DNA of 64,000 bases from Candidatus Aminicenantota bacterium. GTDB lineage: Bacteria; Acidobacteriota; Aminicenantia; Aminicenantales; UBA4085. The notes under the pieces are model-generated. The model was not told the DNA's origin and did not search any database. It saw only the letters and a list, made by a program, of their open reading frames with translations. The first letter of the stretch is position 1. Each line of letters opens with the position of its first letter. Made by a program: the position numbers and the translations under genes. The stretch is taken from contig PLMN01000005.1 of assembly GCA_003141555.1 (NCBI GenBank), positions 186,001 to 250,000 on the forward strand, given 5' to 3'. Shown one piece after another: positions 35,974-52,061 of this stretch.

Positions 35974-37767
35974 ATGGGCCAACCTCGACTTATCATCATC
36001 GGCCCCGTTCTCTTGGCTGCCCTGGCCCTCCTCCCCCGCGCCCTCTCGGGCGATGTCCCGATCGCGAAGCACGGGAAGGCCGAGGCCCGCATCGTCGTCG
36101 ACGCCGGGGCGGGCCCGGTCGAGCGCCAGGCCGCCGAAGAGCTGGCCTTCTTCCTCCATATCGTCACCGGCGCGAACTTCCCGGTGTCCGGCGACGCGCC
36201 CGCAACGGCTTCCCGGATCCTCGTCGGGCCGGGTGCAGCCCGGTCGGCCGTCCCGGGATTCGACGCCGCCGCCCTCAAGCCGGAGGAGACCATCGTCCGC
36301 GCCGCGGGCCGCGACCTCATCCTGGCCGGCGGCGGCCCGCGCGGGACCATCTATGCCGTGTACTCGTTCCTCGAGGACGTCGTCGGCTGCCGGTGGTGGA
36401 CGCCGCAGGCCAGTCTCATGCCCCGCCGCCCAACGCTCGAGATCGGCCCGGTCGACCTCCGCGCCGCGCCGCCCTTCGAATACCGCGAGCCCTACTGGTA
36501 CACGGCCTTCGACCCCGTCTGGGCAGCGCGCAACAAGCTCGACGGGATCGTCGCCGGCGGGGACGAGGCCCGCGGCGGTCACCAGGTCTACGAAGGCTTC
36601 GTCCACACGGCCTACTCTCTCATCCCCCCCGAGAAGTATTTCAAGGACCACCCCGACTGGTTCAGCGAGATCGACGGCAAGCGGACGGACCACGACGCCC
36701 AGCTCTGCCTGACCAACGAGGAGATGCGGCGGGAGCTGGTCAAGAACCTCAAGGAGCGCCTCCGGGCCAACCCCGGGGCGACCATCGCCTCGGTGTCCCA
36801 GAACGACTGCTTCAACCCCTGCCAATGCCCGGCGTGCCGGGCCGTCGACGAGGAGGAAGGGAGCCCCTCCGGGGCGCTCCTCCGGTTCGTGAACGCCGTG
36901 GCGGCCGACATCGAGGCCGAGTTCCCGAACGTGGCGATCGACACCCTGGCTTACCAGTACACCCGGAAGCCGCCGAAGATCACCCGGCCGCGGCCCAACG
37001 TCATCGTCCGGCTGTGCAGCATCGAATGCTCATTCAGCCGGCCGCTCGACGACGCCCGCAACAAGGATTTCTACGACGACCTGGACGCCTGGTCGAAGAT
37101 CGCCGGCCGGCTCTACGTCTGGGACTACACGACCGACTTCGCCCATTACGTCCAGCCCCATCCGAACCTCCAGGTCCTGGCCCCGAATATCCGGCTCTTC
37201 GCCGCCCACAATGTCCGGGGCGTTTTCGAGCAGGGCGCATACGAGTCCTGGGGCTCGGAGATGGCGGAGCTCCGGTCGTGGATGCTGGCCAAGCTGCTCT
37301 GGAACCCGGCGCTCGACCCGCGCCGGCTCCGCGAGGAATTCCTGAACGGCTACTACGGCCCGGCGGCGGGGCCGGTCGGACGCTATCTCGACCTCATGGA
37401 AGGCGCGGTCCTCGCCGCGGGCGACAAGCTCGGCTGCTACTCCCCGCCCGAGGCGAAATTCCTGTCGCTCGAGAACCTGGCGGCGGCCTGGGACCTGCTG
37501 GGCGGAGCCGAGCGCCGGGTGCGAGGCACGATCGAATATGCCCGACGGGTGCTCAGGGTCAAGATGCCGACGGCCTACGTCGCCCTCGTTCGGTGGGACG
37601 CCCTCCGCAAGGAAGCCCAGGCGAAGGGGACGGAATGGCCCTGGCCCAAGACGCGAGGGGAGCTCCTGGACTGGTTCCTGGCCTCCGCGAAGGCCGAAGG
37701 CGTGACCATGATTTCCGAGGGGCAAACCCTGGAAAGCTGGGCCGCTAAAAACGGCGGGGCGCGCTAG
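35974..37767 (+). CDS. DUF4838-family protein with GH20-like N-terminal domain, exported
   Basis: The start was placed at ATG 35974 (AGGAGG upstream, signal peptide ending RALSGDVPI), though the frame opens earlier inside the HD gene. The 597-residue product first has a domain like the N-terminal alpha/beta domain of GH20/GH67 glycosidases ([47 protein letters not shown]). The DUF4838 region follows ([54 protein letters not shown]). It is likely a carbohydrate-active protein of the periplasm or surface; no activity can be assigned. Its stop overlaps that of the convergent aldo/keto reductase by 3 bases. Confidence 0.85.
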
Positions 37768-38759
37768 CTCCGGAAATCGGGCTCGGGCTCGGGAGAGTTC
37801 CCCAGGATCTTCTCGATCCGGGCCAGCACGTCGCCGGTCAGGAGCCGGACCGCGTCCAAGGCCTTCATGTTCTCCTTGACCTGTTCGGGCCGGGAAGCGC
37901 CGGTGATGACGGTGCTGACCCCCGGGGTCCTGAGGCACCAGGCGATCGCGAGCTGGGGCAGGGTGACGCCCAGCCCGGCGGCGACCTTGACCAGCTTCTT
38001 CACCTTGGCCAGCTTTTCGGCGCCTTCCGAACCCTCGAACCGCTTCCTCAGCCACCCGTAGCCGCGCAGGGAGAGCCGCGAGCCCTCGGGAAAGCCCCGG
38101 AGGTATTTTCCGCTCAGGTAGCCGCTGGCCAGGGGGCTCCAGGTCGTCGTCCCCAGGCCGATATCCTCGTAGAGGCGGCGGTATTCCTTCTCCACGCGCT
38201 CGCGGTGGAACATGTTGTATTGGGCCTGTTCCATGGTCGGCGGGACGAGGTGCTCGCGGCGGGCGAGAGCGTAAGCCGTCCGGATGTCCTCGGCCCTCCA
38301 CTCGCTCGTCCCCCAGTAAAACGCCAGGCCCATGTCCACGATCCGGCTCATGGCCCGGACGGTCTCCTCGATCGGCGTCTCCTTGTCCGGGCGGTGGCAG
38401 AAGACGAGGTCCACGTAGTCGAGCTGGAGCCGGCGGAGCGAGGCTTCCAAGCCTTCGAAGATGTGTTTCCGCGACAGCCCCATGTCGTTGGGGCCTTTCC
38501 CTCCCCAGAAGATCTTGGTCGAGATCACGAGGTCCGAGCGCTTCCAGCCGGACTTACGGATGATCGCGCCCATGACGCTCTCGGCCTTCCCCTGAGCGTA
38601 GCCTTCCGCGTTGTCAAAGAAATTCACACCGGCCTCGCGGGCGGCTTTCATGCAGGCCGCGGCGGCCTCCTCATCGACCTGCTCCCCGAACGTCACCCAG
38701 CTCCCGAAGGACAGGGCGGAGACCTTCAGGCCCGATGTCCCCAAGCGGCGGTATTCCAT
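37764..38759 (-). CDS. Aldo/keto reductase (Kv-beta/YghZ-like)
   Basis: Start at the ATG opposite 38757-38759 (GGGAG 8 bases upstream; [21 protein letters not shown] is the standard AKR opening). The 331-residue protein shows the AKR tetrad region: Asp and Tyr in [14 protein letters not shown], Lys in VISTKIFWG, and His in [25 protein letters not shown] and [12 protein letters not shown] are characteristic of the potassium-channel beta-subunit-like group. It reduces carbonyl compounds with NADPH; physiological substrate unknown. It lies 22 bases behind the SDR gene on the same strand and probably shares its transcript. Confidence 0.92.
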
Positions 38760-38781
38760 GGCATGCGCTCCCGACTCGGCG

Positions 38782-39552
38782 TCAGACGCGGTTGACGACA
38801 AGGACGCCGGCCTGGGCCTGGGGCATGACGATCATGTCGTTGATGTTGACGTGCGGCGGCCGCGTAGCGCAGTAATGAACCGCGTCGGCGATGTCGTCGG
38901 GGGTGAGCGGGGTGAGGCCCTTGTAAGTCTTGTCCGCTTTCTCCTTGTCGCCGTGGTAGCGGACCAGGCTGAACTCGGTCTCGACCATCCCGGGATCGAC
39001 CGAGCTCACCCGGATGGGCGTCGCCACGAGGTCGATGCGCATGCCCTGGGAGATCGCTTTGACGGCGAACTTGGTGCCGCAGTAAACGTTGCCCCCGGGG
39101 TAGAGCTCGTGGCCGGCGATAGAGCCGATGTTGATGACGTGGCCGGCGCCGCGCTTCACCATGCCCGGGATGACCGCCCGGCTGACGTAGAGCAGGCCCT
39201 TGATGTTCGTGTCGATCATCTCCTCCCAGTCGGAGATCTTGGCCTCGTGGATCTTGTCCAGGCCGCGGCTCAGGCCCGCGTTATTGATCAGGACGTCGAT
39301 GGCCGCCCATTCGGGCGGCAGCCCGGCGATCGCCCTTTCCACAGCGGGTTGGTCGCGGACGTCGAGGTCGAAGGCGTGGACGGGGACCTTGTGGGCCGCG
39401 CGCAGCTCGTCGGCCAGCTTTTTCAGACGGTCTAGGCGGCGGGCGGCCATGAGGATGCGCGCCCCGTCGGCGGCGAAGATCCGGGCGCAGGCCAGGCCGA
39501 TGCCTGAGCTCGCGCCGGTGATGAAAACGACCTTGTTGCGAAGTGATGTCAT
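38782..39552 (-). CDS. SDR-family NAD(P)-dependent oxidoreductase (YdfG-like)
   Basis: A 256-residue classical short-chain dehydrogenase. The nucleotide-binding TGASSGIG is at residues 13-20, NNAG is near 92, the catalytic serine is in INIGSIAG and the YxxxK motif is YCGTK. An Arg after the first strand (MAARRLDRL) suggests NADP preference. The sequence is closest in feel to the YdfG 3-hydroxy-acid dehydrogenase group. It is the first gene of a two-gene unit with the aldo/keto reductase. Confidence 0.92.
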
Positions 39553-39618
39553 GGTTTCCTCCGGTCCCCTAGTTTACCAGATGCCGGGATTCTTGGCATC
39601 CCCGGACCCGCAAGATAG

Positions 39619-39723
39619 TCTATCGGCGGCGAGGACGCGATCAACCTCGACGGCGGCGGGTCGACGACCATGGTCGTTGGGGGCAAGGTCGTCAACCACC
39701 CTTCGGACACGGCCGGCGAGCGA
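39619..39723 (+). pseudogene. C-terminal remnant of a phosphodiester glycosidase (NAGPA-like)
   Basis: Read in frame from 39619, about 35 codons give SIGGEDAINLDGGGSTTMVV and then a GKVVNHPSD-type tail. NLDGGGSTTMV is the hallmark near the C-terminus of the phosphodiester glycosidase (NAGPA/DUF2233) family. A stop codon precedes it and the frame then continues without family resemblance up to the GGDEF gene. No start or catalytic core is present, so it is a decayed fragment in the 250-base gap between the SDR and GGDEF genes. Confidence 0.6.
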
Positions 39724-39788
39724 CGCCGGCAGCAGGCCGAGCGCGCCGACCAAGCCGCCCGGGGCTTCCTTCCCCCCGGGAGAGGGCG

Positions 39789-39794
39789 TATAAT
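39789..39794 (+). promoter_or_regulatory. TATAAT box just before the GGDEF gene
   Basis: A consensus -10 box ends 8 bases before the ATG at 39803. No good -35 is seen. If used, the transcript would start within a base or two of the start codon. Confidence 0.4.
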
Positions 39795-39802
39795 CTCTCA
39801 CA

Positions 39803-41365
39803 ATGTTTAACGGCCCCCTGCCCTACATCCTGGCCCTCGTCCTCGCCGCCGTCATTTGCGGCGCGGCGGCGGTCTACGCCTGGCGCTTCCGACTGGCTCC
39901 GCTTACCGCGGCCCTGACTGGGCTCCTGGTCTGCTCGGCGATCTACTCCCTCGGATACGCGCTCGAGCTCAACACCGATTCCCTCGACCATATGCTGATC
40001 CTGAACAAGGTCCAATACGTGGGGATCGCGTTCATCCCCTTCTTCTGGATCCTACTTTGCGCCCGCTTCGCCGGCCGGGAAACCTGGCTCCGCCGGCCCG
40101 TCCTGGCCATCCCGTTCTTCCTGTCCCTGACGACGCTCGTCCTCAACGTCACCAATTCGGTCCACCACCTTTTTTACCGGGCGGTCAGCCTCGACTCCAG
40201 CGGCCCCTTCCCGGTCATCGTCCTGGACAAGGGGGTCTGGTTCTGGATCCATATCGTCTATACGCATCTGGCCCTGATCGCCGGCACCGCCCTGCTCATT
40301 CGGATGCGGCAGAAAGCGCCGAGCCGATATCGGAGCCAGGCGGCCGTGCTCCTGATCGGGGCCGGCCTGCTCTGGATCGGATTGTTCGTCTACATCCTGG
40401 GCTTGACCCCTCACCGGATCGACACGACACCCCTGGCCATGACCCTTGCCGGGCCGGTCCTCGCCTGGGGATTGCTCCGGTACCGTTTCCTCGATCTCGT
40501 CCCGGTGGCCCGGGACAGCGTTTTCGCCGGCATGCGGGACGGGGCCGTCGTGATCGACCTCCAGGACAGGATCGTCGATGTCAACGCGGCCGCGGCGGAG
40601 ATCATCCCCGGTCTCTCGCCGGCCGCGATCGGAACGAAGCTGGGGGACGCTCTCCCGGACCAAAAAGAGCTGGCCGCGCTCCTTCAGACGACGGGCCGCG
40701 AGGAAGCGTCGATCCGGGTCGGAGATGGCGAGGGCATCCGCCATTACCTCGCCAGGCTCTCCCCCATCGCCGACCGACGCCGGAGGCTGCTGGGCCGGGC
40801 CCTGATCCTGACCGACGTGACCGAGCAGGTCCTCCTGATGCGGCGGCTCGAGAATCTGGCCACGATCGACGAGCTGACCGGCGCCTACAACCGGCGCCAT
40901 TTCTTCAATGTCGGGAAGGCGGAGATCGCCCGGGCGTGGCGCTATGGGCATCCCCTCTCGATCATCATCCTCGATCTCGACCACTTCAAGCGGGTCAACG
41001 ACACCTGGGGCCATGAAGCCGGCGATCGCGTGCTCCAAGAAGCCTGCCGGATCATCAAGTCCAGGATGAGGTCGATCGACATCTTCGGCCGCCACGGCGG
41101 CGAGGAGTTCGCCGTCCTCCTGCCCGAGACCCCTCCCGACCAGGCCGCCGCCGTGGCCGAACGGCTGCGGGCCTCCCTCGCCGACCACCAGGTAAAGGTC
41201 GCGGGCGACGCCAGCGTCTCGATCACCGCGAGCATCGGCGTCGCCGGCGCGCTCCGGATCCGGGAGGAGTCCATCGACAGCCTCATCCGGAGCGCCGACG
41301 CGGCGATGTACAAGGCCAAGGAAGCGGGCCGCAATTGCGTCCGTCTCGCCGCCCCGGCCGCTTGA
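39803..41365 (+). CDS. Membrane diguanylate cyclase: 7TM sensor, PAS, GGDEF
   Basis: The 520-residue protein has seven hydrophobic segments in residues 1-225 of the histidine-kinase N-terminal 7TM type (SAIYSLGYALEL, NKVQYVGIAFIPFFW, LLRYRFLDLVPVARD). A PAS-like domain (about 235-345) and a GGDEF domain (about 355-515) follow. The active site GGEEF is at 432-436, and the inhibitory RxxD site (RSID) lies 5 residues before it, so it should be an active, product-inhibited c-di-GMP synthase. It converges with the HD-GYP hybrid gene, which would degrade the same messenger. Confidence 0.92.
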   Translation: MFNGPLPYILALVLAAVICGAAAVYAWRFRLAPLTAALTGLLVCSAIYSLGYALELNTDSLDHMLILNKVQYVGIAFIPFFWILLCARFAGRETWLRRPVLAIPFFLSLTTLVLNVTNSVHHLFYRAVSLDSSGPFPVIVLDKGVWFWIHIVYTHLALIAGTALLIRMRQKAPSRYRSQAAVLLIGAGLLWIGLFVYILGLTPHRIDTTPLAMTLAGPVLAWGLLRYRFLDLVPVARDSVFAGMRDGAVVIDLQDRIVDVNAAAAEIIPGLSPAAIGTKLGDALPDQKELAALLQTTGREEASIRVGDGEGIRHYLARLSPIADRRRRLLGRALILTDVTEQVLLMRRLENLATIDELTGAYNRRHFFNVGKAEIARAWRYGHPLSIIILDLDHFKRVNDTWGHEAGDRVLQEACRIIKSRMRSIDIFGRHGGEEFAVLLPETPPDQAAAVAERLRASLADHQVKVAGDASVSITASIGVAGALRIREESIDSLIRSADAAMYKAKEAGRNCVRLAAPAA

Positions 41366-41443
41366 CGGACAGGTCCATCCCCGGGAAAATCGAAGAATTC
41401 TTGATGGATTGTCGACACGCCCTTGACGTGTCAGGACCGCGGG

Positions 41444-43984
41444 TCAGGCATCGTTGGCCGGAGAAACCGGCCCGTTGTTGGGGGTGAAGAACGTCTTGGC
41501 CACTTCGAGGAAGAAGCCCACGACCTCGGGATCGAACTGCCCGCCCGAGCACTTGAGGATTTCCTTGACCGCGGAGTTATGGGAGTCCGCGTTCCGGTAG
41601 GGACGATCCGAGGTGATGGAATCGTATGTGTCCGCGACGGCCATGATCCTGGAGCCGATGGGAATCTCCAGGCTCTTGAGGCCGTCCGGATAACCCCGGC
41701 CGTCATAGCGCTCGTGGTGGTGGCGGACCACCTTGGCGACCTGCTGAAGCTCGATGATGGGCTTCAGGATGTTCTCTCCGACGACGGGGTGCTGTTTGAT
41801 GTAGACGAACTCCTCCTCGGTCAGCCGCCCCCGCTTGTTCAGGATCTTCTCCGGGACGGCGATCTTGCCCACGTCATGGAGGATCGAGGCCAGCTCAAGG
41901 TCCTTCATCTCGCGTTCGTTCAGCCCCATCTTCGCCGCGATCTTGAGGGTAAACTCCGTGACCCGGGTCGAGTGGTCGCGGGTGTAGCGGTCCTTGGCGT
42001 CGAGGGCCGAGACGAGCGACTTGATCATCGACAGGAAGAGGACCCGCTGCCGCTCGACGAGGTCGGTCGTCCGGACCTTGAGGTTTTGGTTGACGAGGGC
42101 GAGCTCGGACTCGGCCTGCCGCATCCGGAGCAGGGACCGGATGCGGGCCTTGAGCTCCACCGAATCGAACGGCTTGGCGATGTAGTCGTCCGCCCCGGCC
42201 TCGATGCCTTCGGCCAGCATGTCCGAGCCGGACCGGGCGGTGACGAGGATCACGGGGATGTGGCGGAGGCCGTCCTCGGACTTGATCTTGCGGCAAAGCG
42301 TCTGGCCGTCCATGCCCGGCATCATGACATCGCTCAGGACAAGGTCGGGGACCTTGTCGTGCAGGATGGCCAGGGCGGCCTCCCCCGACGAGGCGAAGTC
42401 GAGGTCGAACTCATCGCTCAGAAGGAGCCTCATCAGCTTCAGGACCTCGGAGTTGTCGTCGACGACGAGCAATCGATAAGCGTGTTTCTTGTCCCGCTCC
42501 TTGAGGTCGGTGGCGACCTCCTGGCGTTCGAGGTCGACGAGTTGGAGCTTCCGGAAATCCGTGACGAGGTCCTGGATCCGGGGTCCTTCCGCGTCGGTCA
42601 CCCGCTTCTTGACGGATACCGGCTGGTCCCCCTGGCGGCGATCGAGGACGTCCTCGTTGAAATGGGCCTCGCCCTTCAGCAGCTCCACGTAGAAGCGCGA
42701 CCCTTTCTTCAGTTCGCTCTCGGCCCGGATCCGGCCGCCGTGGATCAGGACGATCTCCCGGGCCAGGGACAGGCCGATCCCCGTCCCCTCGTGGGCCCGG
42801 GAGAGCGATCCGTCGACCTGGGAGAACCGGTCGAAGATCGATTCGAGCATGTCCGCGGGAATGCCGATCCCCGTATCCTCGACGATCAGGCTGATGTCCT
42901 GCCCTCGGTCCTCGAGGTAGACCGTGATCCGGCCGCCCTCCGGGGTGAACTTGAGGGCGTTCGACAGCAGATTGAGCACCACCTTCTCGAAGTGCTCCGG
43001 ATCGAGGGTGATGTTCATCGGGGCGGAGGGGTGCTGGAAATAGAGGGTGATTTTCTTCCGGTCGGACAGGGGCTTGACCGAGGCGAGCAGGGTCGTGATG
43101 TACTCGACGAAGTCCACCGTCTTGATCTTCAGCCGCATCTTGCCCTCCTCGAGCTTGGTCAGATCGAGGAGGTTGTTGATCAGCTTCAGGAGCTTGAAGC
43201 CGTTGTTCTGGATCATGGCGATGGTTTCTTTCTGGGTGGCCGTGATCCGGCCCATCTCTCCCTCGGCCATGGGGCCCAGGGGCGCCAGGATGAGGGTCAA
43301 GGGCGTGCGGAGCTCGTGGCTGATGTTGGCGAAGAACTGGGTCTTAAGCTCGTCCAGGGTCTTCAGCTTCTTGTTCGACGCCTGGAGCTTGTCCGACGTC
43401 TCCTCCAACTGGATGCGGCTCCGCAGCTCGCGCCGGCGGATGTTTTCCATGATGTAGGACCCGAAGGCCCCGACGATGATGAGCCCCGTCAGGAAGAAGA
43501 GGCTGGAGAAGACTTCGCGCCAATCGGTGCTGGCCCGATGCATCGTCAACAGGCTCGGGATCGTGAAGCTCCCCCAGATGAGGCCGTAAAGAATCAAGGT
43601 CTGGCGAAAGGCGAGGGGGACGACGACGACCAGGCCCATGATGATGATATACAAGCCCTGGACGTACTTGGCCGAGAACCCCCCCAGGATCTGGATCATG
43701 ACCGCGATGCCGGCGACGTCGAAGATCGTCAGGGCGAACGCCAGGTTCGAGATGGCCCGGTCGGTCTTGAGGCGCGCCAGGAGGAGGAGGAGCAGGCCGT
43801 GGGCGGCCAGGACGACCAGCCGGATGATGAGGAACGTCTGAAAGTGCGGGACGGCGAAGGTCGCGTCGAGGATCAGGAAGAGGAGATAGAGGACGGCGGA
43901 GAGGTAGATGACCCGGCGGGTGCGGCCGCGGAGGTCGTACTCGCGGTTCAGCCGCTCCTCGAAGGCCTGCGTCACGTCCGTCAT
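41444..43984 (-). CDS. Hybrid histidine kinase / receiver / HD-GYP phosphodiesterase
   Basis: Start at the ATG opposite 43982-43984, one base after the stop of the upstream gene; the longer open frame lies inside that gene. The 846-residue protein has about six membrane segments (residues 20-195), a HisKA/HATPase pair (His223 in ANISHELRTPL; NLLSNALKFTPEGG; EDTGIGIP; GTGIGLSL), a receiver domain with phospho-acceptor Asp552 (SDVMMPGMDG), and a C-terminal HD-GYP domain. The HD pair is at 703-704 (HDVGKI), followed by HHHERYDGRGYPDG and DRPYR, all intact. It should sense an input, phosphorylate itself and control c-di-GMP breakdown. Translational coupling to the PilZ fusion gene suggests they act together. 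Confidence 0.92.
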   Translation of the reverse strand: MTDVTQAFEERLNREYDLRGRTRRVIYLSAVLYLLFLILDATFAVPHFQTFLIIRLVVLAAHGLLLLLLARLKTDRAISNLAFALTIFDVAGIAVMIQILGGFSAKYVQGLYIIIMGLVVVVPLAFRQTLILYGLIWGSFTIPSLLTMHRASTDWREVFSSLFFLTGLIIVGAFGSYIMENIRRRELRSRIQLEETSDKLQASNKKLKTLDELKTQFFANISHELRTPLTLILAPLGPMAEGEMGRITATQKETIAMIQNNGFKLLKLINNLLDLTKLEEGKMRLKIKTVDFVEYITTLLASVKPLSDRKKITLYFQHPSAPMNITLDPEHFEKVVLNLLSNALKFTPEGGRITVYLEDRGQDISLIVEDTGIGIPADMLESIFDRFSQVDGSLSRAHEGTGIGLSLAREIVLIHGGRIRAESELKKGSRFYVELLKGEAHFNEDVLDRRQGDQPVSVKKRVTDAEGPRIQDLVTDFRKLQLVDLERQEVATDLKERDKKHAYRLLVVDDNSEVLKLMRLLLSDEFDLDFASSGEAALAILHDKVPDLVLSDVMMPGMDGQTLCRKIKSEDGLRHIPVILVTARSGSDMLAEGIEAGADDYIAKPFDSVELKARIRSLLRMRQAESELALVNQNLKVRTTDLVERQRVLFLSMIKSLVSALDAKDRYTRDHSTRVTEFTLKIAAKMGLNEREMKDLELASILHDVGKIAVPEKILNKRGRLTEEEFVYIKQHPVVGENILKPIIELQQVAKVVRHHHERYDGRGYPDGLKSLEIPIGSRIMAVADTYDSITSDRPYRNADSHNSAVKEILKCSGGQFDPEVVGFFLEVAKTFFTPNNGPVSPANDA

Positions 43985-43985
43985 G

Positions 43986-46900
43986 TCAGTCCCTGACCTG
44001 CGCCACGACGACGTACCCCTGGGCCGGATCGCCGAAGGACGGGATCGTCGCAAGAGGCTCCCAGCCCGCCTCATCCAACAGCCCGTCCAGCTTGTCCGGA
44101 TCGAAGAAGTCGAACGTCCCCGCCTCTTCGAGCTCGACCAGGGCCTGGGCATCGTTGAGGAAGAAGCGAATCGATTCGAGGATGACCTCCCGCGGTCGGT
44201 CCGGCCCGAACTCCTCGGGCGGGGTGGCCGCGATCTTCTCCACCAGCCGGGTGAAGAGCCCCGAGGCGTCGGTGTCGGGCCGCATGCTCGACAGGACCAG
44301 CCGGCCGCCCGGGGCGATGATCCGCCGCAGCTCGATGAGGGTCTCGACCGGGTTGAAAATGTACGACAGGACGAGGCTCATGAGGATCTTGTTGAATTGG
44401 CCGGGCTTGATCGGCAGGTGGAGCGTCCCGTCGCCGGTCTCCGGAAAGACGAGCGTCCGAAACGCCGGCCGGCCCGGAATCCGGCCGCGGAGGAAGCGGG
44501 CGGCCTGGTTGAAGTCGAAGATGATCCGGTATTCGGGCAGCTCGAACTTGCTTTTCAGCCAGCGGTCGATCTCGGGCGTGATCGCGTCCCCGCGGAGGAG
44601 GCGGTGCAGGCGCGCGGAAAACGCGGCGTCGATCCGCTCGGCGCTCTGGAGAGGAAGGTTCTCGATCGCGTCGGCCAAAGCCCGGAAGCGCCCGATCTCG
44701 CCGGTCAGGAACCGCCGGACCGGGAGGTAGCGGTTCAGCTCGACGTCGAGGCCCAGGAATTCGATCCGGCCCGGCCCCTCCGCCGCGGCGAGGCGGGCGG
44801 CGAGCTTCTGCCGCGCTTGGACCATGGCCTTCGGGATGAGGTCGGCGATGAGGATCAGGGCGGGCAGGGGCCGGTTCTCCTTCAGGATGTGCTCCGCGAA
44901 ATTGCCGGTGCCGCCGCCGAGGTCGAGGAGCCGGTCGCCGGGCGCGAGGTCGAGGGCCCGGAGCTGGTCCTGCATGAGGCCCTGGTAATCCTCCGAGAGG
45001 GCCATCACGTCGAAGCCGATGAGGTTGTTCTCCCCGACGAGGTAGCGGCTCCAGTATTCCTGGCGGTTCTTGACCTTCCGCAGCGGGATGCGGTCCTTCT
45101 CGGCCCGCCGCTTGATCTCCATGTCGTTCTTGTCGGGCAGGACCGGCTTGATCGAATCGCGGTACAGGTGGCGGTGGACCAGGACGCTGACCGTCCCGAA
45201 CAGCTGGAGCGCCTCCTCGGAAGTCCGAGCATTGTGCCCCACCGGGACGGTGATGACGTCGCGCGGGGCGTCGACGTGGATGCTCATGATGTCCCGGACG
45301 AAGGCGGGCTTGATCCAATGATCGTGCTCGCCCAGGATCCACGTGACCGGGATGTCGATGTGGCGCATGTCCTCGCGCGCCTGGTCCAGCGTCGCCACCC
45401 CGTTGGCCACGACGTCGGCCGCGAAGGGGGCCATGCTGATCAGGTTGCCGAGGATGGGGATGACGCCGAGATCGATGCCGATCTGATATTGCTCGAGCAG
45501 GTCCAAGCCGCAGTTGATCCGGATCATGAGGTCCCGGAACTCCAGCGTCCCCATGCAGGCGATCCAATAGTTGACCCGCCGGCGCCAGGCCTCCTCCCGA
45601 AGGACGATGCGCGCTTCCAAGGCGGACAGCGAGAAGCTGACCAGGACGACGGCGCTCGGAGTGAGGACGGGGTTGTTCTGGAGCCAATCCAGGACGGCCT
45701 TGATGTCGTCGGCGCCCTGGCTGAGGCTGGCGTGGACCATCTCGTAGGGCGGGATCGACGCCTCGGGATCCTTGTAGCTCTCGCCCTTGCGCCGGATGCC
45801 GTCGTAGCGGAGGACGGCCACGGGCTCGCCCTTGGAATAGAAGCTGCAGGCGATCGTCTGGGCGAGGGCGAACAGCGTCTCCTTGGTCTTCCCGAACGCC
45901 GGCGGGACGACGATCACCGGGACGGGCGTGCCGTCGAGCGGCAGCGACACGTCCAGCAGCCCCACGATCTCCTCGCCCTTGGCGTTTTCCAGATGGACGA
46001 CGTGCGGCGGGCGCTTGGCGAGCTCCGTCAGGTCCGTCATCCGCCGGGGACCCGTCCTGAATTTTTCGGTGTCCTGGGTCTTCGGCTTTTCACCGTACGC
46101 CTCGAACGCGGGGATCGTCGCCGTTTGGATGGTCAGCCGGCCGATCCCGAACTGGACGCCGTAGCGCAGCCGGTCCGAGTCCCGGTCGCTGACCCGGTGG
46201 ATGTTCCGGATCTCGCCCCGGACCTCGCGGATCATCTCCTCGCCGTGGAAAATCCGGATCGACTCCAGGGGAGTCCCGATGAGAAGGGCGACATGGCGGG
46301 CGTCGGTCAGGAAGCTCACCCCCCCCTCGCTGATGTCGGTGATCGTTCCCCGGATGACGGTCTCGAAGGGCGGCGGCAGGGTGATCTCCGCCTCGAGCTC
46401 CCCATCCGAGCCCACCCGGCGGACCGACCGCTTCTCCGAGTAGAACATCATCCGGGGAAAGAAGCAGTCCAGGGCCCCGCCGTCCGGGCTGATCCGGTAG
46501 ACGACGGTCTCGAAATTGTAGGTCGCATATTCGGCCTGGAAGGAGACGAAGATGCTGTCCGACGTCTTGAACTTCGAATCCAGATGCTCCCCGGCCAGGC
46601 GGCAATGGCTGCCCGGCTCGACGGCCGCGAGCTGGAGGGTCGCGGGCTCCTTCTGGTGGGGATGGATGACCGTGATCTCGGTCTTGGTCCGGTGCGCCGC
46701 CGCCAGGAGCGCCTCGATCTTCGCGGAATCGGTGAAGGGCACGATGCTCTCGGTCCTGAGGAACTCGTATTTCTCCTTGAGGCCGGCCAATCCCTTGGGC
46801 GTAATGCTGTCCGCGATGAAGCGGACCAGCGACCGGCGGCTCTCCTCCTCCATCAGGAGGAATTTCACGCCGACGCCCCCGAAGTCGTCATCCGAACGCA

Positions 46901-47600
46901 CGATCCGGCCGGTGGCCAGGATTTCCTCGCCGGTGGGCAGCATGATCCGGAAGGGGAGGATATAGTCCTTGGGCAGGGTCGTCCGGACGAACATGCCGTC
47001 CTCGCTCAGGTTCTCGACGACCGCCTTCCCCCGGAGGCCGATCTCCACCTCGATATCGCGCTCCCCGGCGAACGTCGCCCGCATGATCCCGCGCTTTTCC
47101 CGGGATCGATGGGCCAGGAGAAAGGACGTCTTCAGTTTGATGCCCGCGGGGTCGAACGGCTTGTGGAACACATGGTCGATCCGCCCGATGCAGGGATTGA
47201 TCTCGGGCCCCAAGGCATCGCCGTTGTCCGCGATCACCATCTTGATGATGGACTCGGCCTTGGGCACCATCTCGTTCACGTAGCGGACCAGGGTCAGCCC
47301 GTCGATTTGGGGCAGGGTTTGGCCGACCAGGATGGCGTCGAAATGGGGGGTTTTCTTCACCAGCCGGACGGCATCCCGTCCGTTGGTTGCGATCACGACG
47401 GAATAGTCGGGCTCGAATACTCTCCTGAGCCTGTCGACCTTGGAGGAATCCTCGGCCGCGACAAGAATGACCGGCCTGGCGTCAGCCTCCTGCTCTTGGT
47501 CTTTCAATGTAGTATTACGCGAAAAAGGCCGGCCGGCAGCCGAAGCGCCCCCGACGGAAGGCCTTTTCCTTTTCTCTACTTTAGTCGTTAGTAACGGCAT
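43986..47600 (-). CDS. Giant fusion: pseudo-receiver, two PilZ domains, LuxD-like alpha/beta hydrolase, SAM methyltransferase
   Basis: The 1204-residue protein starts at the only in-frame ATG downstream of a good promoter (no Shine-Dalgarno seen). Residues about 40-150 resemble a receiver, but the phospho-acceptor Asp is replaced (LVGQTLPQIDG). PilZ 1 is about 165-265 (ENLSEDG). PilZ 2 is about 390-500 with RSVRR and DISEGG, the canonical c-di-GMP-binding pair. Residues about 545-820 form an alpha/beta hydrolase with Ser in SFSLSALEA (near 659), Asp in GEHDHWI and His in VGHNART. The SLSA context and DHW spacing resemble LuxD myristoyl-ACP thioesterase. From about 875 there is a class I methyltransferase (LLDLGGGTGNFAEHIL). 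The job is unknown; it may be a c-di-GMP-controlled acyl-transfer and methylation enzyme. Confidence 0.85.
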   Translation of the reverse strand: MPLLTTKVEKRKRPSVGGASAAGRPFSRNTTLKDQEQEADARPVILVAAEDSSKVDRLRRVFEPDYSVVIATNGRDAVRLVKKTPHFDAILVGQTLPQIDGLTLVRYVNEMVPKAESIIKMVIADNGDALGPEINPCIGRIDHVFHKPFDPAGIKLKTSFLLAHRSREKRGIMRATFAGERDIEVEIGLRGKAVVENLSEDGMFVRTTLPKDYILPFRIMLPTGEEILATGRIVRSDDDFGGVGVKFLLMEEESRRSLVRFIADSITPKGLAGLKEKYEFLRTESIVPFTDSAKIEALLAAAHRTKTEITVIHPHQKEPATLQLAAVEPGSHCRLAGEHLDSKFKTSDSIFVSFQAEYATYNFETVVYRISPDGGALDCFFPRMMFYSEKRSVRRVGSDGELEAEITLPPPFETVIRGTITDISEGGVSFLTDARHVALLIGTPLESIRIFHGEEMIREVRGEIRNIHRVSDRDSDRLRYGVQFGIGRLTIQTATIPAFEAYGEKPKTQDTEKFRTGPRRMTDLTELAKRPPHVVHLENAKGEEIVGLLDVSLPLDGTPVPVIVVPPAFGKTKETLFALAQTIACSFYSKGEPVAVLRYDGIRRKGESYKDPEASIPPYEMVHASLSQGADDIKAVLDWLQNNPVLTPSAVVLVSFSLSALEARIVLREEAWRRRVNYWIACMGTLEFRDLMIRINCGLDLLEQYQIGIDLGVIPILGNLISMAPFAADVVANGVATLDQAREDMRHIDIPVTWILGEHDHWIKPAFVRDIMSIHVDAPRDVITVPVGHNARTSEEALQLFGTVSVLVHRHLYRDSIKPVLPDKNDMEIKRRAEKDRIPLRKVKNRQEYWSRYLVGENNLIGFDVMALSEDYQGLMQDQLRALDLAPGDRLLDLGGGTGNFAEHILKENRPLPALILIADLIPKAMVQARQKLAARLAAAEGPGRIEFLGLDVELNRYLPVRRFLTGEIGRFRALADAIENLPLQSAERIDAAFSARLHRLLRGDAITPEIDRWLKSKFELPEYRIIFDFNQAARFLRGRIPGRPAFRTLVFPETGDGTLHLPIKPGQFNKILMSLVLSYIFNPVETLIELRRIIAPGGRLVLSSMRPDTDASGLFTRLVEKIAATPPEEFGPDRPREVILESIRFFLNDAQALVELEEAGTFDFFDPDKLDGLLDEAGWEPLATIPSFGDPAQGYVVVAQVRD

Positions 47601-47633
47601 GAAATTTAAAAAAACACACCACTTGCCATGAGT

Positions 47634-47663
47634 ACTATATATAGTGGCTCGCCTTAATGTCAA
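47634..47663 (-). promoter_or_regulatory. Sigma70-like promoter of the PilZ-fusion/HD-GYP operon
   Basis: On the minus strand TTGACA (47663-47658) and TATAGT (47639-47634) are 18 bases apart. This matches the window's recurring promoter pattern and gives a leader of roughly 30 bases before the ATG at 47600. Confidence 0.65.
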
Positions 47664-47796
47664 GGAGCGGGTGCCCCAATTTGTAGTCTTTCCCAGGCTG
47701 ACAAAGCCATAAGGAGAGAAACGGGGCACGGCGACGAGCCGGGCTTTCACAAAACCATTGCATGGGGCACTGGATCCGTTATAAGATTTTTAGGAC

Positions 47797-50058
47797 ATGG
47801 GGGATCGGGACGGGCGGAAAACTCCGGCATTTGGTTTTTCGCTTCTCGCCGGGATTCTCGTTCTCCTCGTCGGTCTCTACGGCCATCATCTCCTGAGGCT
47901 CAGGTGCGGCCTCCCGCCCGAAGTCGACCCCAGGCTTCTCGTCCGGATCGATAATACGGAGATCAGGGGCGAAAGCGACGAACGATTCGCCCTGACCCGC
48001 AAGACGCCCGGCGAATCCGCGGACTTCTTTTTGCGGACGCCGGAGGGGGGCATCGAAAGGAAAACCCTGCCTCTCGTTCCCTATTTCGCCCGGACGATCT
48101 TCCCCTCGGTTTTCCTGTTCATCGGGCTGGCCTGCAGCGCTCTCGGGTTCCTGACTTTCATCCTCAGGCCGGACGACCGAAAGGCCAGGATCTATTATGG
48201 GCTCAGCCTGGCGTTCGGATCGGCCATTCTCATCAGCGGGGAGGAGTATGGCCTGGGCCGTTCCTGGACGACCTTCGTCCCCAGCCTCCTCTTCATCGTG
48301 GCCTACGCGGCCTCCCCCGCCCTCCTGCTCCATTTTTCGCTCGCGTTCTCCGGCGGCGGGAAAAGGCCGCGGCGGCTATTGATCTTCGTTCCCGGGGCCA
48401 TCGTCGCCACGGCGCAGATCGCCGCGTTCCTGGTCGCGTTCCTCGAGCCGTCCGCCGCGGTCTTCCGCACCTACAACGCTTATTACCCCCTGTTCAGAGC
48501 CTATACCATCATCTACGCCGCCCTGTCCATCGTCGCCCTGAACCGCGCGTTCCGGCGGTCCCCGGATGACGAGGAGCGGGCCCAGATCAAGTGGATCTTC
48601 TTCGGTTTGACCGTCGGGATCCTGCCCTACCTCGTCCTCTACCAGGCACCCGTCGCGATCGGCGTCGCGCCCCTTCTTTCGGAGGAGATCTCGACGATCT
48701 TCTTCGTCGGGATCCCGCTGGCCTTTTCCGTGGCGATCGTCAAGTACCGGCTGATGAACATCGGGCTCGTCATCAACCGCAGCCTCGTCTACTCGCTCCT
48801 CACGGTCTTCACCGTCGGGATGTACCTGGTCTTCATCGAGCTCGCCCAGAGGATATTCGCCCGGTGGCTGGCCGGCCGCGAGCTCGGCGTCACCATCGCC
48901 GGGGTGTTCCTGGCGGCTCTCGCCTTCCAGCCCGCCCAGCACCGGATCCAGACCTTCGTCGACAAGGCGTTCTTCCGCCAGAGCTATGATTACCGGCGGA
49001 CCATCATGGCCTTCAACGAAAAAGCCCAGCAGATGGTGGATCGGGACGGCCTCCTGGACTTCTTCCGGCGCGAAATCACGCGCGTCCTCCCGGTCGAAAG
49101 CCTCCGGATCGGGCCTGACGCCGGCGCCCGGACGAAGCCGGAGGGCGGGGCGGAAGGCGACGGGGCCGGGCTGGCCCTGCCGCTCGCCGTCGATCCGGGA
49201 GGCGGCCCTTGTTTCCTGGTCCTGGGACGCAAGAAATCCGGAAGCCGCTACACGCGGGAGGACGTGGAACTCCTCCGATCGATGTCCGGCGAGCTCCAAG
49301 TGAACCTCGACCGCGTCCGGCTCCAGGAAGAAGTGATCTACGAGCGCGCCTCCCGGGAAAAGCTGGACGAGATCAACCGGCTCAAGACCGAGTTCATCTC
49401 GACCGTCTCCCACGAGCTCCGCACGCCCTTGAACTCGATCCAGTCCCTGGCGGAGCTCCTCCGGTCGGGAAGGATCAAGGACCGGGACAAGACCGAGGCC
49501 TACCTTGCCTTGATGGCCGCCGAAAGCACGCGGCTGTCCCGGTTCCTTCACAACATCCTCGACTACGGGAAGATCGAACAGCGGGTAAAGACCTATCATC
49601 TCCAGCCGGCCGTGCTCCAGGACGTGATCGAAGAAGCCGCGGCCATCTTCCGCCCTCTGATCGACGGGCGGGGCGCCCGCCTCGAGATCCTCCTTGTCCC
49701 GGAGGCCGTCCGCCTCGACATCGACGCCGACGCGGTGAAGCAGGCCTTGATCAACCTGATCGACAATGCTATAAAATATTCGGGCGGAAAGAAGGACGTC
49801 ACCGTGGAGCTCGCCGATGGAGGACGGACCTGGGACATCCGGGTTGCGGACCGGGGAATCGGCATCCCGCCCGACGACCTGAAAAAAATCTTCGAGAAGT
49901 TCTTCCGCTCGCCCCGGGCCGGGCAGATGTGCCCGGAGGGCGCCGGGCTAGGCCTCAAGATCATCCGGCATATCATGGATGCCCACAGAGGGGATATCCT
50001 GGTGCGCAGCGTGGAGGGTGAAGGGAGCGTCTTCACCCTGGCCTTTCCGAAACCATGA
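47797..50058 (+). CDS. Membrane sensor histidine kinase
   Basis: A 753-residue kinase. A first membrane segment (about 13-35) is followed by a PDZ-like extracytoplasmic region (LLVRIDNTEIRGESDERFAL). A block of seven or eight segments lies at about 100-395, then a GAF-like region and the transmitter. The H-box is VSHELRTPLNSIQS, the N-box LIDNAIKYSGG, and the G boxes ADRGIGIPPDD and GAGLGLKI. Its stop overlaps the start of the OmpR-type regulator (ATGA at 50055), so the pair forms a two-component system. A TATAAG box sits 11 bases ahead of the ATG. Signal unknown. Confidence 0.92.
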   Translation: MGDRDGRKTPAFGFSLLAGILVLLVGLYGHHLLRLRCGLPPEVDPRLLVRIDNTEIRGESDERFALTRKTPGESADFFLRTPEGGIERKTLPLVPYFARTIFPSVFLFIGLACSALGFLTFILRPDDRKARIYYGLSLAFGSAILISGEEYGLGRSWTTFVPSLLFIVAYAASPALLLHFSLAFSGGGKRPRRLLIFVPGAIVATAQIAAFLVAFLEPSAAVFRTYNAYYPLFRAYTIIYAALSIVALNRAFRRSPDDEERAQIKWIFFGLTVGILPYLVLYQAPVAIGVAPLLSEEISTIFFVGIPLAFSVAIVKYRLMNIGLVINRSLVYSLLTVFTVGMYLVFIELAQRIFARWLAGRELGVTIAGVFLAALAFQPAQHRIQTFVDKAFFRQSYDYRRTIMAFNEKAQQMVDRDGLLDFFRREITRVLPVESLRIGPDAGARTKPEGGAEGDGAGLALPLAVDPGGGPCFLVLGRKKSGSRYTREDVELLRSMSGELQVNLDRVRLQEEVIYERASREKLDEINRLKTEFISTVSHELRTPLNSIQSLAELLRSGRIKDRDKTEAYLALMAAESTRLSRFLHNILDYGKIEQRVKTYHLQPAVLQDVIEEAAAIFRPLIDGRGARLEILLVPEAVRLDIDADAVKQALINLIDNAIKYSGGKKDVTVELADGGRTWDIRVADRGIGIPPDDLKKIFEKFFRSPRAGQMCPEGAGLGLKIIRHIMDAHRGDILVRSVEGEGSVFTLAFPKP

Positions 50059-50741
50059 AGACGAAGATCCTGTTGATCGAGGACGACGAGGCCCTCCGGG
50101 TGGCGACGGCCGCCTTCCTGGAGAGCGAGGGATTTCGCGTCACCGCGGCCGCGGACGGTCGGAAGGGGCTCGAAACGGCCCTTCAGGGGACCTCCGACCT
50201 CATCGTCCTGGACCTGATGCTGCCCTCGATGTCGGGGCTCGAGATCTGCCGCTCCCTCCGGGAGAAAGGCATCGCCTCGCCCCTCATCATGATGACGGGG
50301 CGGAAGATCGACGAGATCGACAAGGTCACCGGCCTCGAGCTCGGCGCGGACGATTACATCCTCAAGCCGTTCGGCCAGCGCGAGCTTCTGGCGCGCATCC
50401 ACGCCGTCCTCCGCCGGGCCGTCCCGCCCGCCGCCCCGGTCGAGGCCGTCTCGTTCGGTGACGTGTCGATCGATTTCAAGAAGAAGACCGCCGTCAAGGG
50501 GAAGAAAGAGCTTTACCTCACCGCCCGGGAATACGATCTGCTCCGCTTCCTGACGGCCCGCGAAGGCGAAGTCGTCGACCGGGAGACCCTCCTCAACGAG
50601 GTCTGGGGCTATGAGAAGTTCCCGACGACGCGGACCATCGATACGTTCATCCATAACCTCCGGAAAAAGATCGAGAAGGATCCCGCCCGCCCCCTCCACC
50701 TGGTGACGATCCCCTGGTCGGGGTACAAGTTCCGGAAATAG
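50055..50741 (+). CDS. OmpR/PhoB-family response regulator
   Basis: A 228-residue protein. The receiver is residues 1-120, with the acidic pair in LLIEDDEA, phospho-acceptor Asp in VLDLMLPSMSG and Lys in ILKPFGQ. The winged-helix effector domain is about 130-228 (LTAREYDLLRFL, TTRTIDTFIHNLRKKI, PWSGYKFRK). It is the cognate partner of the overlapping kinase gene. Target genes are not evident. Confidence 0.95.
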   Translation: MKTKILLIEDDEALRVATAAFLESEGFRVTAAADGRKGLETALQGTSDLIVLDLMLPSMSGLEICRSLREKGIASPLIMMTGRKIDEIDKVTGLELGADDYILKPFGQRELLARIHAVLRRAVPPAAPVEAVSFGDVSIDFKKKTAVKGKKELYLTAREYDLLRFLTAREGEVVDRETLLNEVWGYEKFPTTRTIDTFIHNLRKKIEKDPARPLHLVTIPWSGYKFRK

Positions 50742-50788
50742 CCGGGTCATGACCGCCCGAGGCGCGTCGCCGTTGCGGCTCAAGCTCG

Positions 50789-50818
50789 TTGACAGGCTTC
50801 GGGGCTTCAGCCTATAGT
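50789..50818 (+). promoter_or_regulatory. Sigma70-like promoter of the MFS gene
   Basis: TTGACA and TATAGT are 18 bases apart, followed by GGGAG ahead of the ATG at 50841. It is the same promoter pattern as in the selenoprotein cluster and the PilZ operon. Confidence 0.65.
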
Positions 50819-50840
50819 TCCGGGCATCAGGGAGAAACTC

Positions 50841-52061
50841 ATGACAGACCAACCCCTCCGCGTTTACGGCTACCGCTGGGTCGTTCTGGCCTCGTTCGTC
50901 TTCATCGCCGCCATGACCCAGGTGCTCTGGATCTCGTTCGCCCCAGTCACGAGCGCCGCCGCGAGCTTTTATCACACCTCCGACCTCATGATCGGCCTGC
51001 TCTCGATGAGCTTTATGATCGTCTACATCCTCATGTTCCTGCCCGCCGCCTGGGCCATCGACACATGGGGTTTCAAGGCCGCGGTCGGGCTGGGGGCGTT
51101 CCTGACGGGCTTTTTCGGCCTGGCCCGCGGGCTCTTCGCCTCGAACTTCACCGTGGTTTTCATCGCCCAGATCGGCCTGGCCGTCGGCCAGCCCTTCGTC
51201 CTCGGGGCGATCACCAAGCTCGCCGCGCGCTGGTTCCCGGCGCGGGAGCGGGCGACCGCCGCGGGGTTGGGCACCCTGGCCCTGTATCTCGGCCCCCTGG
51301 CGGCGATGCTCCTCTCGCCCTACATCGTCCTGCGCTGGGGCCTGGTCCACATGCTCCGCGGCTTCGGCTACGCCGCGGCCGTCGCGGCCATCCTGTTCCT
51401 GGTCCTGGCCCGCGAGCATCCGCCCACACCCGCCGGCGCCGACGAGCGGGCCCTCATGCTCGACGGCCTCAAGTCCATGCTCCGCCGGTCCGACTTCCGC
51501 CGGCTGCTCCTCATCTTCTTCGTCGGCCTGGGTCTGTTCAACGCCGTGTCGACCTGGATCGAGGACATCGTCCGGCCGCGCGGCTTCAGCATCGCCCAGG
51601 CCGGCTTGATGGGCGGGCTGATGCTCGTCGGCGGGATCGTGGGGGCGGTGATCATGCCCCTGCTCTCCGACAAGATGCGCCGCCGGAAGCCGTTCATCGT
51701 CTTCGCCATCGCCGGGCTCATCCCCGGGCTCGTGGGCATGATCTTCGCCGCCTCCTATCCCCTCCTGCTCGTCTCGAGCTTCGTCTTCGGCTTCTGCCTG
51801 CTGAGCGCCGGCCCGATCGGATTCCAATACGCCGCGGAGATCACCCATCCCGCCCCCGAGGGGACGTCGAACACCCTGCTCCTGGTCATGGGCCAGATTT
51901 CGGGAATCCTCTTCATCTTCGGAATGGACATGCTCAAGGCGCCGGCGACCGGGGCCATGACCGGGCCGCTCCTCGCCCTGACCGCGCTCACCGCGGGATG
52001 CATCGCCCTGGCGGTCGCCCTCCCCGAATCGCCGATCCGCGATGGAACGCCCGGACGCTGA
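50841..52061 (+). CDS. Major facilitator superfamily transporter (FLVCR-like)
   Basis: A 406-residue protein with 12 predicted membrane segments. The motif between TM2 and TM3 is AAWAIDTWGFKAAVG, and GQPFVLGAITKLAARWFPARERATAAGLGTLA is the TM4-5 segment typical of FLVCR/NNP-like MFS carriers. The central loop around residues 190-215 separates the two halves. Substrate unknown. It has its own promoter and is independent of the preceding two-component pair. Confidence 0.9.
   Translation: MTDQPLRVYGYRWVVLASFVFIAAMTQVLWISFAPVTSAAASFYHTSDLMIGLLSMSFMIVYILMFLPAAWAIDTWGFKAAVGLGAFLTGFFGLARGLFASNFTVVFIAQIGLAVGQPFVLGAITKLAARWFPARERATAAGLGTLALYLGPLAAMLLSPYIVLRWGLVHMLRGFGYAAAVAAILFLVLAREHPPTPAGADERALMLDGLKSMLRRSDFRRLLLIFFVGLGLFNAVSTWIEDIVRPRGFSIAQAGLMGGLMLVGGIVGAVIMPLLSDKMRRRKPFIVFAIAGLIPGLVGMIFAASYPLLLVSSFVFGFCLLSAGPIGFQYAAEITHPAPEGTSNTLLLVMGQISGILFIFGMDMLKAPATGAMTGPLLALTALTAGCIALAVALPESPIRDGTPGR

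Follow-up and report, generated by a model that had tools for sequence, protein, structure and literature searches.

The cellulose synthase BcsA is a fusion of a PilZ domain with an enzyme. Linked genes of the Rpf/DSF system encode a thioesterase-active synthase, a fatty acyl ligase, a multi-transmembrane (multi-TM) hybrid sensor kinase and an HD-GYP phosphodiesterase, as outlined in the published account (PMC4504480). CqsS and LqsS carry a six-helix membrane sensor before the histidine kinase and respond to lipophilic ligands, according to a second account (PMC4821796).

Here we analyse, by computation only, a 64,000-nucleotide stretch of contig PLMN01000005.1 from a Candidatus Aminicenantota bacterium (the window), which encodes a PilZ fusion protein (FUS; 43986..47600, minus strand) that comprises, in order, a degenerate receiver, a PilZ domain, a YcgR-N-like domain, a second PilZ domain, a LuxD-like acyl hydrolase and a SAM methyltransferase. 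It is followed by the gene for an 846-aa hybrid of a six-helix membrane sensor, histidine kinase, receiver and HD-GYP phosphodiesterase (HK-REC-HD-GYP; 41444..43984, minus strand), on which the gene for a 520-aa 7TM-PAS-GGDEF diguanylate cyclase with an I-site (39803..41365, plus strand) converges. The preliminary description of this DNA had placed the three genes at these positions, within 8 kb and with their GGEEF and RxxD, HD-GYP and PilZ motifs intact, all of which we confirm. FUS, whose acyl hydrolase and methyltransferase parts went unnamed there, is the main novelty of the locus.

Domain content of FUS and of the HD-GYP hybrid

The open reading frame of FUS begins with GTG at 47750 and ends with the stop codon at 43988..43986 (minus strand); ATG 47600, chosen in the preliminary description, and TTG 47507 are further start candidates. 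The start is still uncertain, with alignment and promoter spacing favouring TTG 47507. A promoter-like site of the sigma-70 type (TTGACA-18-TATAGT) lies before FUS at 47634..47663 (minus strand), and a comparison of 19 leaders, window included (L089 and L061, whose starts are incomplete, and L114 were left out), revealed a conserved 8-mer, CGACTAAA, in the upstream/leader region at 47580..47587 (minus strand). Scanning 34000..53000 against Rfam (cmscan, E ≤ 1) detected neither a c-di-GMP riboswitch nor any other known riboswitch near the unit, returning two sub-threshold matches (one frameshift element, 34437..34469).

FUS has Pfam matches above cut-off to PilZ, in two stretches, and to Acyl_transf_2 and methyltransferase models. 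The PilZ model (PF07238) scores 56.9 bits against a cut-off of 22.5, and both RxxxR and [DN]xSxxG are complete in PilZ 1 (RxxxR, NxSxxG; 46803..47102, minus strand, limits approximate) and PilZ 2 (RxxxR, DxSxxG; 46149..46436, minus strand, limits approximate). In the alignment of 30 FUS proteins (A5; the incomplete rows L126, L119 and L120 counted only at sites with letters), the Arg pair of PilZ 1 is kept in all 28 rows with letters, the Arg pair and the Gly of PilZ 2 are kept in 30/30, and other PilZ motif positions vary in a few rows. Between the two PilZ domains lies a YcgR-N (PilZN)-like domain (46449..46751, minus strand, limits approximate), the structure model of which matches YcgR, PP4397 and VCA0042 in Foldseek. 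On these motifs, FUS is predicted to be a c-di-GMP-binding PilZ protein. Its receiver-like domain (47103..47471, minus strand) scores 25.7 against a Pfam cut-off of 30.2 for Response_reg and does not qualify as a phosphorylatable receiver, having Gly at the phospho-Asp column; of the 21 receiver-bearing rows, window included, 6 have Asp at this column, 11 have Asn, 2 have His, and Ser and Gly occur once each. The predicted model places the domains relative to each other with only fair certainty (pTM 0.63).

The acyl hydrolase/transferase domain (45081..46031, minus strand) contains a Ser657, Asp760 and His789 triad (numbered from ATG 47600), and the adjoining class I SAM methyltransferase domain (43992..45080, minus strand) contains a DxGxGTG motif I followed by a long insert. 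Both the triad and DxGxGTG are invariant in all 30 aligned FUS proteins, among which overall identity falls to 26–29%. The best solved match of the hydrolase model is LuxD, 1THT (Z 28.9, rmsd 2.6, 276 residues; next match Z 24.6), which is also the sole match at E ≤ 0.01 (E 7.7e-7) when a profile of the hydrolase domain alone is compared with PDB sequences. In the printed alignment, counted by hand, the invariant Ser and Asp pair with 1THT chain positions 114 and 211, which we take to be catalytic residues of LuxD; the invariant His falls outside that alignment. Additionally, Acyl_transf_2 (PF02273) scores 25.9 bits on the window FUS against a cut-off of 20.3 and matches 19 of 21 FUS family members at E ≤ 0.01. 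The LuxD equivalog model (NCBIfam NF052253) scores 24.2 bits, below its cut-off of 420. The fused enzymes of FUS probably handle fatty acids.

The hybrid carries the kinase motif ISHELRTP, the phospho-Asp D552 and, within its HD-GYP (HD_5) domain (41522..42016, minus strand), the intact catalytic motifs HDVGK and HHERYDGRGYP. Throughout 28 aligned hybrids, the kinase His, the receiver Asp, HD, the first His and the Glu of HHE, and GxGYP are kept; Gln replaces the second His of HHE in 3 hybrids and Asn replaces the Asp of DG in 4, both positions being intact in the window. The predicted fold of the membrane sensor region (43373..43933, minus strand) resembles that of ImcA and of mammalian adenylyl cyclase membrane regions, with ImcA and adenylyl cyclases 5, 8 and 9 filling the top 12 rows of matches (Z 13.3–17.6; next row 10.7) and the bacterial cyclase Rv1625c reaching only Z 9.0. 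No CqsS structure is among the matches listed for the sensor model, which does not count against a likeness to CqsS. MASE8, for which we found no literature, matches 5 of 28 hybrids weakly (best E 0.0018), and no Hpt model occurs among the 17 Pfam families that the 28 hybrids match at E ≤ 0.05, which include one weak PF10090 match.

Gene coupling and distribution of the unit

A single base, C at 43985, separates the FUS stop codon from the hybrid ATG at 43984, as had been reported in the preliminary description. Among 19 relatives in which the junction was measured, the two reading frames overlap by 4–26 bp in 18, and a single base lies between them in the remaining one. Moreover, the HD-GYP gene lies directly downstream of FUS in 25/25 relatives of the two-gene type whose contig continues past FUS. 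These adjacency counts leave out loci whose contig stops short of the HD-GYP position (L061, L070, L089, L091 and L092; of the other type, L069, L119, L120, L127 and L129), count L069 = L121 and L124 = L171 once each as the same loci, and include both copies of G222 (L086 and L087). Taken together, FUS and the HD-GYP gene form a conserved, coupled two-gene unit, beyond chance.

Of 94 genomes sampled from the order, 28 encode FUS, counting the own genome (best-match E values of 1.2e-100 or below), and it also occurs in Spirochaetota and in sulfate-reducer records. With no more than two candidates per genome scored, at least 5 of 392 sampled Spirochaetota genomes contain it. A phylum sample, scored at three candidates per genome, yielded long matches in 7 of 199 genomes: G188 and six members of the order, among them the own genome. 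FUS was not found in 3 of 12 family genomes, including the same-genus G199 (98% complete, 7% contaminated), so the FUS system is dispensable. No relative was found in viral contigs or, by tblastn at E ≤ 1e-20, in plasmids, and we rejected a mobile-element or phage cargo.

The spirochaetal units have the order FUS, AMP ligase, ACP, (B12 radical SAM), HD-GYP hybrid. Where a spirochaetal unit is covered from end to end, AMP ligase and ACP genes stand between FUS and the hybrid (8/8), joined by the B12 radical SAM gene in six of the eight; the window unit has no ligase, ACP or radical SAM gene. A complete pathway encoded elsewhere in the genome is provisionally rejected, as profile searches of 12 family genomes gave no convincing, co-distributed AMP-ligase or radical SAM homologue: the AMP-ligase profile gave partial matches of at most 106 bits, mostly in ORFs of about 600 aa, and the best radical SAM matches occur also in family genomes without FUS. 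Whichever the gene layout or tree clade, the unit ends with the HD-GYP hybrid.

The cyclase gene has a different distribution. Its product carries RSID-N5-GGEEF (RSIDIFGRHGGEEF), an I-site and an A-site with the RxxD and GG[DE]EF motifs, and its stop codon lies 78 bp from that of the HD-GYP gene, in line with the convergent arrangement described before. Linkage across relatives, proposed as a check on the three genes, holds for FUS and the HD-GYP gene, whereas a GGDEF gene stands beside the unit in only 6 of 21 two-gene-type relatives, all from one genus (g3) and differing from the window cyclase. Four loci with part of the HD-GYP gene only (L072, L087, L027 and L090) entered the adjacency counts and not this one. 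The flanks (0–12 kb; HD-GYP side from 0.6 kb) of the other 15 two-gene-type relatives and of 8/8 ligase-type loci have no GGDEF. Full-length relatives of the window cyclase (46–49% identity) occur in 4 of 11 other family genomes, each on a contig other than that of FUS and with no FUS or HD-GYP sequence in their flanks, which span 1.5 kb per side except for one side of the G207 locus (0.26 kb). Thus relatives with unlinked genes, named beforehand as evidence against the circuit, exist for the cyclase and not for FUS with the HD-GYP gene.

Proposed mechanism and rival readings

We propose, with moderate confidence, that FUS is an enzyme processing acyl groups under the gating of c-di-GMP, and that the hybrid coupled to it, with its six-helix membrane sensor, is a phosphodiesterase acting in feedback, a reading based on domain content, motifs, gene coupling and the ACP and ligase company in Spirochaetota. 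The PilZ domains of FUS, two in the window, would bind c-di-GMP, which would switch or localise the LuxD-type serine acyl hydrolase/transferase and the SAM methyltransferase. The two enzymes would take turns on one kind of substrate, an acyl-thioester that is probably acyl-ACP. The six-helix sensor of the hybrid may detect a ligand in the membrane, and phosphate would pass from the hybrid kinase to its own receiver and tune c-di-GMP breakdown, so that the messenger level gating the acyl enzyme would be set by its own partner. The pair, recurring in many relatives, may represent an unrecognised signalling circuit. If so, c-di-GMP would directly gate acyl- and methyl-transfer chemistry within one polypeptide, an output that differs from the PilZ targets known in glycan synthesis, motility and transcription. 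It would also provide a testable signalling pathway for Ca. Aminicenantes, some Spirochaetota and some Desulfobacteraceae, and a defined enzyme/sensor pair for asking if endogenous lipids are ligands of 6TM sensor anchors. Among the literature matches listed, no title or abstract opening described a FUS-type fusion, although one may be in print in subscription papers; no literature linking Aminicenantes with c-di-GMP was found, and a term search of the main texts of papers on Leptospira PilZ/HD-GYP proteins gave no mention of methyltransferase, hydrolase or acyl.

It is a possibility of some weight, held tentatively, that c-di-GMP controls the production of a surfactant or a lipid with a structural role by the FUS enzymes and that the cue of the sensor is unrelated to the product. 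Surface life is commonly under c-di-GMP control, and ACP, AMP ligase and B12 radical SAM suit modification of a lipid or another acyl compound equally with that of a signal; however, the hybrid ends the unit in both layouts and both clades, a linkage not required of a sensor whose cue is unrelated, which suggests that the sensor belongs to the pathway. The boldest reading, held rather doubtfully, is that the unit represents a new lipid-signalling family, for cell–cell or self-sensing, in which FUS would be a signal synthase set by c-di-GMP and the six-helix hybrid a receptor of its product that lowers c-di-GMP and closes the loop, resembling Rpf with unrelated parts. FUS would then release an acyl chain from ACP and methylate it, and second-messenger receptor and signal synthase would be joined in a single polypeptide.

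A dedicated three-gene circuit, in which the GGEEF cyclase supplies, the hybrid removes and FUS reads one local c-di-GMP pool, is unlikely. All three genes have intact motifs within 8 kb, and in g3 a GGDEF gene with a 7TM-like N-terminus directly follows the HD-GYP gene, codirectionally, in 6 of 8 loci; as this gene differs from the window cyclase gene, recruitment of a cyclase may have happened repeatedly. Against this stand the flanks without GGDEF and the four unlinked cyclase relatives described above; moreover, the g3 cyclases are 26–30% identical over the N-terminal part and are thus probably paralogues. Across the own genome there are 6 matches to GGDEF, 12 to HD_5 and 5 to PilZ, the last spread over 4 proteins, with five GGDEF regions besides that of the window cyclase. 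Because of these counts and of the cyclase relatives unlinked to FUS, we reject the earlier view of a self-contained c-di-GMP circuit; the window cyclase is one of several able to feed the c-di-GMP pool, a neighbour outside the conserved core and not a dedicated part. Finally, it is highly improbable that the enzyme domains are relics and that FUS regulates motility, or some other machine, in the manner of YcgR. The PilZN-PilZ arrangement does resemble YcgR, MrkH and VCA0042, but the triad and the SAM motif stay invariant down to the lowest overall identity, ACP and ligase genes accompany FUS in Spirochaetota, and the decaying part is the receiver.

Comparison with described systems

FUS resembles LuxD, a myristoyl-ACP thioesterase, in fold, in the Ser and Asp positions, in the PF02273 match and in adjoining AMP ligase and ACP genes in Spirochaetota. 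It differs in its 17% identity, its score below the equivalog cut-off and its fusion to PilZ and methyltransferase domains, and none of the FUS neighbours identified is luxA, luxB or luxC. With Rpf/DSF (RpfF, RpfB, RpfC and RpfG), as described in the published account, the FUS unit types share linked genes for an enzyme of thioesterase type (predicted in FUS), a ligase, a multi-TM kinase and HD-GYP. However, RpfF belongs to the crotonase family, no model of which is among the Pfam matches of FUS at E ≤ 1, whereas FUS joins an alpha/beta hydrolase to a methyltransferase and to PilZ domains. RpfC and RpfG, which include a phosphotransfer domain, are separate proteins; the hybrid is one protein without an Hpt match.

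Like CqsS and LqsS, the hybrid has a predicted six-helix sensor ahead of the histidine kinase, but its output is HD-GYP, and no cqsA/lqsA-type gene was noticed among its neighbours. The sensor also resembles the 6TM anchors of adenylate cyclases in the predicted-fold matches to adenylyl cyclases 5, 8 and 9, a likeness that is weaker for the bacterial Rv1625c. The PilZN-PilZ pair and c-di-GMP motifs of FUS are shared with YcgR, MrkH and VCA0042, from which FUS is distinct in having an extra PilZ and two enzyme domains. As in BcsA, a c-di-GMP receptor domain is joined to an enzyme; the predicted output of FUS is acyl and methyl chemistry, whereas that of BcsA is glycan synthesis.

Gene order and distribution of the fusion/HD-GYP unit

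In the window, the GGDEF protein P0003 (39803..41365, + strand), which combines a 7TM sensor, a PAS domain and a GGDEF domain with an RSID I-site and a GGEEF motif, is convergent with a two-gene unit on the opposite strand, with 78 bp from stop to stop. The unit consists of the PilZ fusion, which ends at 43986, and, one base further, the sensor-kinase-receiver-HD-GYP hybrid (43984..41444) as its second gene. The three genes are placed as in the preliminary description.

Strong long matches to the fusion occur in 28 of 94 genomes surveyed at the order level and in 9 of 12 at the family level, own genome included in both, and the family survey returned no fusion match in G199, a genome of the same genus. 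Wherever the contig of a two-gene-type relative runs on past the fusion, the next gene is the HD-GYP gene (25 of 25: 24 loci from the order of the window and one Deltaproteobacteria MAG). With starts chosen by script, the two reading frames overlap by 4-26 bp in 18 of 19 measured relatives and are separated by one base in the other. A comparison of 28 hybrids shows no change at the kinase His, the receiver Asp or most residues of the HD-GYP motifs; three have Gln in place of the second His of HHE, and four have Asn in place of the Asp of DG. The genome bin G222 holds the unit in two copies (L086 and L087).

A second gene order is found in Spirochaetota, where all eight units visible over their full length run fusion, AMP-binding ligase, ACP and HD-GYP hybrid, with a B12 radical SAM gene between ACP and hybrid in six; two additional contigs (L127 and L129) end within the fusion. 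Two Desulfobacteraceae contigs (L119 and L120) begin in the same way, with fusion then ligase up to the contig end, and locus L121 of G093, a genome of the window's order, shows fusion, ligase, ACP and the start of the radical SAM gene before its contig ends. In Spirochaetota-type fusion sequences, a further PilZ domain replaces the receiver at the N-terminus (Pfam PilZ at 14-113 in the L123 protein). A quick tree, with SH-aLRT as its only support measure and with long-branch warnings, separates a receiver-bearing two-gene clade from a PilZ-first ligase-bearing clade and places the truncated fusion of G188 in the former on a long branch. The ligase (L123:10647-12041 and homologues) carries a P-loop-like stretch, TYRG(Y/C)GYPLGA, in 7/7 aligned members, which we take to differ from the usual ANL P-loop.

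Linkage of the cyclase

Of the 11 other family genomes, four contain a full-length relative of P0003 (46-49% identity), always on a different contig from that genome's fusion, and no fusion or HD-GYP sequence was found in their flanks, one of which, in G207, is only 256 bp long; the G207 fusion contig ends within the HD-GYP gene. A GGDEF gene adjoins the unit in 6 of 21 two-gene-type relatives, all of the coded genus g3, and in none of eight ligase-type loci; as the flanks span 0-12 kb (at least 0.6 kb on the side of the HD-GYP gene), a few adjoining GGDEF genes could be missed. The g3 genes, of the 7TM type but different from the P0003 gene, are codirectional and directly 3' of the HD-GYP gene in six of eight g3 loci (L080, L081, L082, L083, L084 and L088), possibly reflecting repeated recruitment of a cyclase to the unit. 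Their products contain GG[DE]EF and RxxD and share 26-30% identity with P0003 over the 7TM-PAS part.

The own genome (3.79 Mb, with the window on contig C31) totals 6 GGDEF, 12 HD_5 and 5 PilZ matches, the last in 4 proteins. Elsewhere in this genome, at G000:C8:56632-57567, a GGDEF match adjoins a PilZ match, both assigned to an open frame listed at 690 aa, and the two may form a fused cyclase and receptor.

Domains and leader of the fusion, and the sensor of the hybrid

In Pfam, the fusion matches the receiver model weakly, PilZ over two stretches, and the Acyl_transf_2 and methyltransferase models. An AlphaFold2 model (1170 residues, 30 aligned sequences) reached a mean pLDDT of 81.3 and a pTM of 0.63, and the predicted domains are believable, their placement relative to one another less so. 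LuxD (1THT), YcgR, MrkH and PP4397 fill the top five Foldseek rows, followed by other esterases, thioesterases and VCA0042. In VIA-align, LuxD scores Z 28.9 (rmsd 2.6, 276 of 293 aligned), ahead of other hydrolases (24.6); additionally, when a profile of the hydrolase domain alone is run against the PDB at E <= 0.01, 1THT is the one sequence retrieved (E 7.7e-7). The invariant Ser and Asp pair with 1THT chain positions 114 and 211 (profile alignment, counted by hand), which we take to be LuxD catalytic residues. The acyl triad and SAM motif are invariant in 30/30 aligned proteins, and the PilZ Arg pairs are kept in 28/28 and 30/30 alignment rows with letters. Unlike these motifs, the receiver decays, its phospho-Asp remaining in 6 of 21 receiver-bearing rows and being Gly in the window. 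The methyltransferase domain (43992..45080, - strand) carries an insertion of about 110 residues that separates motif I from the later motifs, judged from profile positions against 3MGG.

Upstream of the fusion lies a promoter-like site, TTGACA-18-TATAGT; exact TTGACA occurs in 16 of 19 fusion leaders (window included), and the best-scoring promoter stands 111-136 nt upstream of the start in 13 of 19 relatives, a spacing that TTG 47507 fits better than ATG 47600. Between these two starts, a terminator-like hairpin with a T run (47527..47543, - strand) may be an attenuator or chance. The 8-mer CGACTAAA (47580..47587, - strand) in the window's leader recurs in 12 relatives' leaders (13 of 19 in all, six being without it). 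It occurs 13 times against 6.8 expected from base composition (422,843 bases, 22 fusion-bearing sequences, both strands), always on the fusion strand and 11-211 bp upstream of a fusion start, so its position is striking and its number is not. The occurrences span three families, and within-genus sequences are close, so the 13 are not independent events; the 8-mer is a possible operator or leader element.

Residues 1-205 of the HD-GYP hybrid are predicted to form a six-helix membrane bundle behind a short leading helix (pLDDT 85). The best Foldseek E for this sensor, 6.7e-3, is not significant. The top 12 VIA-align rows are all membrane regions of ImcA or adenylyl cyclases (5, 8, 9) at Z 13.3-17.6, a moderate match given that helical models without clear relatives get a best Z near 14; the next row is unrelated (10.7), and the bacterial cyclase Rv1625c scores 9.0. 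According to Beltz et al. (PMC4821796), the autoinducer receptors CqsS and LqsS have lipophilic ligands and a 6TM design that is in essence identical to that of cyclase anchors. This gives a lead towards a lipophilic ligand for the hybrid's sensor, not a test of one.

Proposed mechanism and comparison with Rpf/DSF

Taken together, the anatomy of the unit points to an acyl-processing enzyme that is gated by c-di-GMP and paired with a phosphodiesterase. The HD-GYP protein could pull down c-di-GMP, the messenger that would gate the enzyme. That the product is a signal stays a hypothesis, no likelier than a structural lipid. The unit does not qualify as an Rpf/DSF system, with no crotonase synthase or phosphotransfer domain among its Pfam matches and no separate RpfG. 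Rpf/DSF, whose parts as described in PMC4504480 are a synthase with thioesterase activity, an acyl ligase, a multi-TM hybrid kinase and an HD-GYP protein, is nevertheless the closest working analogue of the unit, and the logic of the two is alike.
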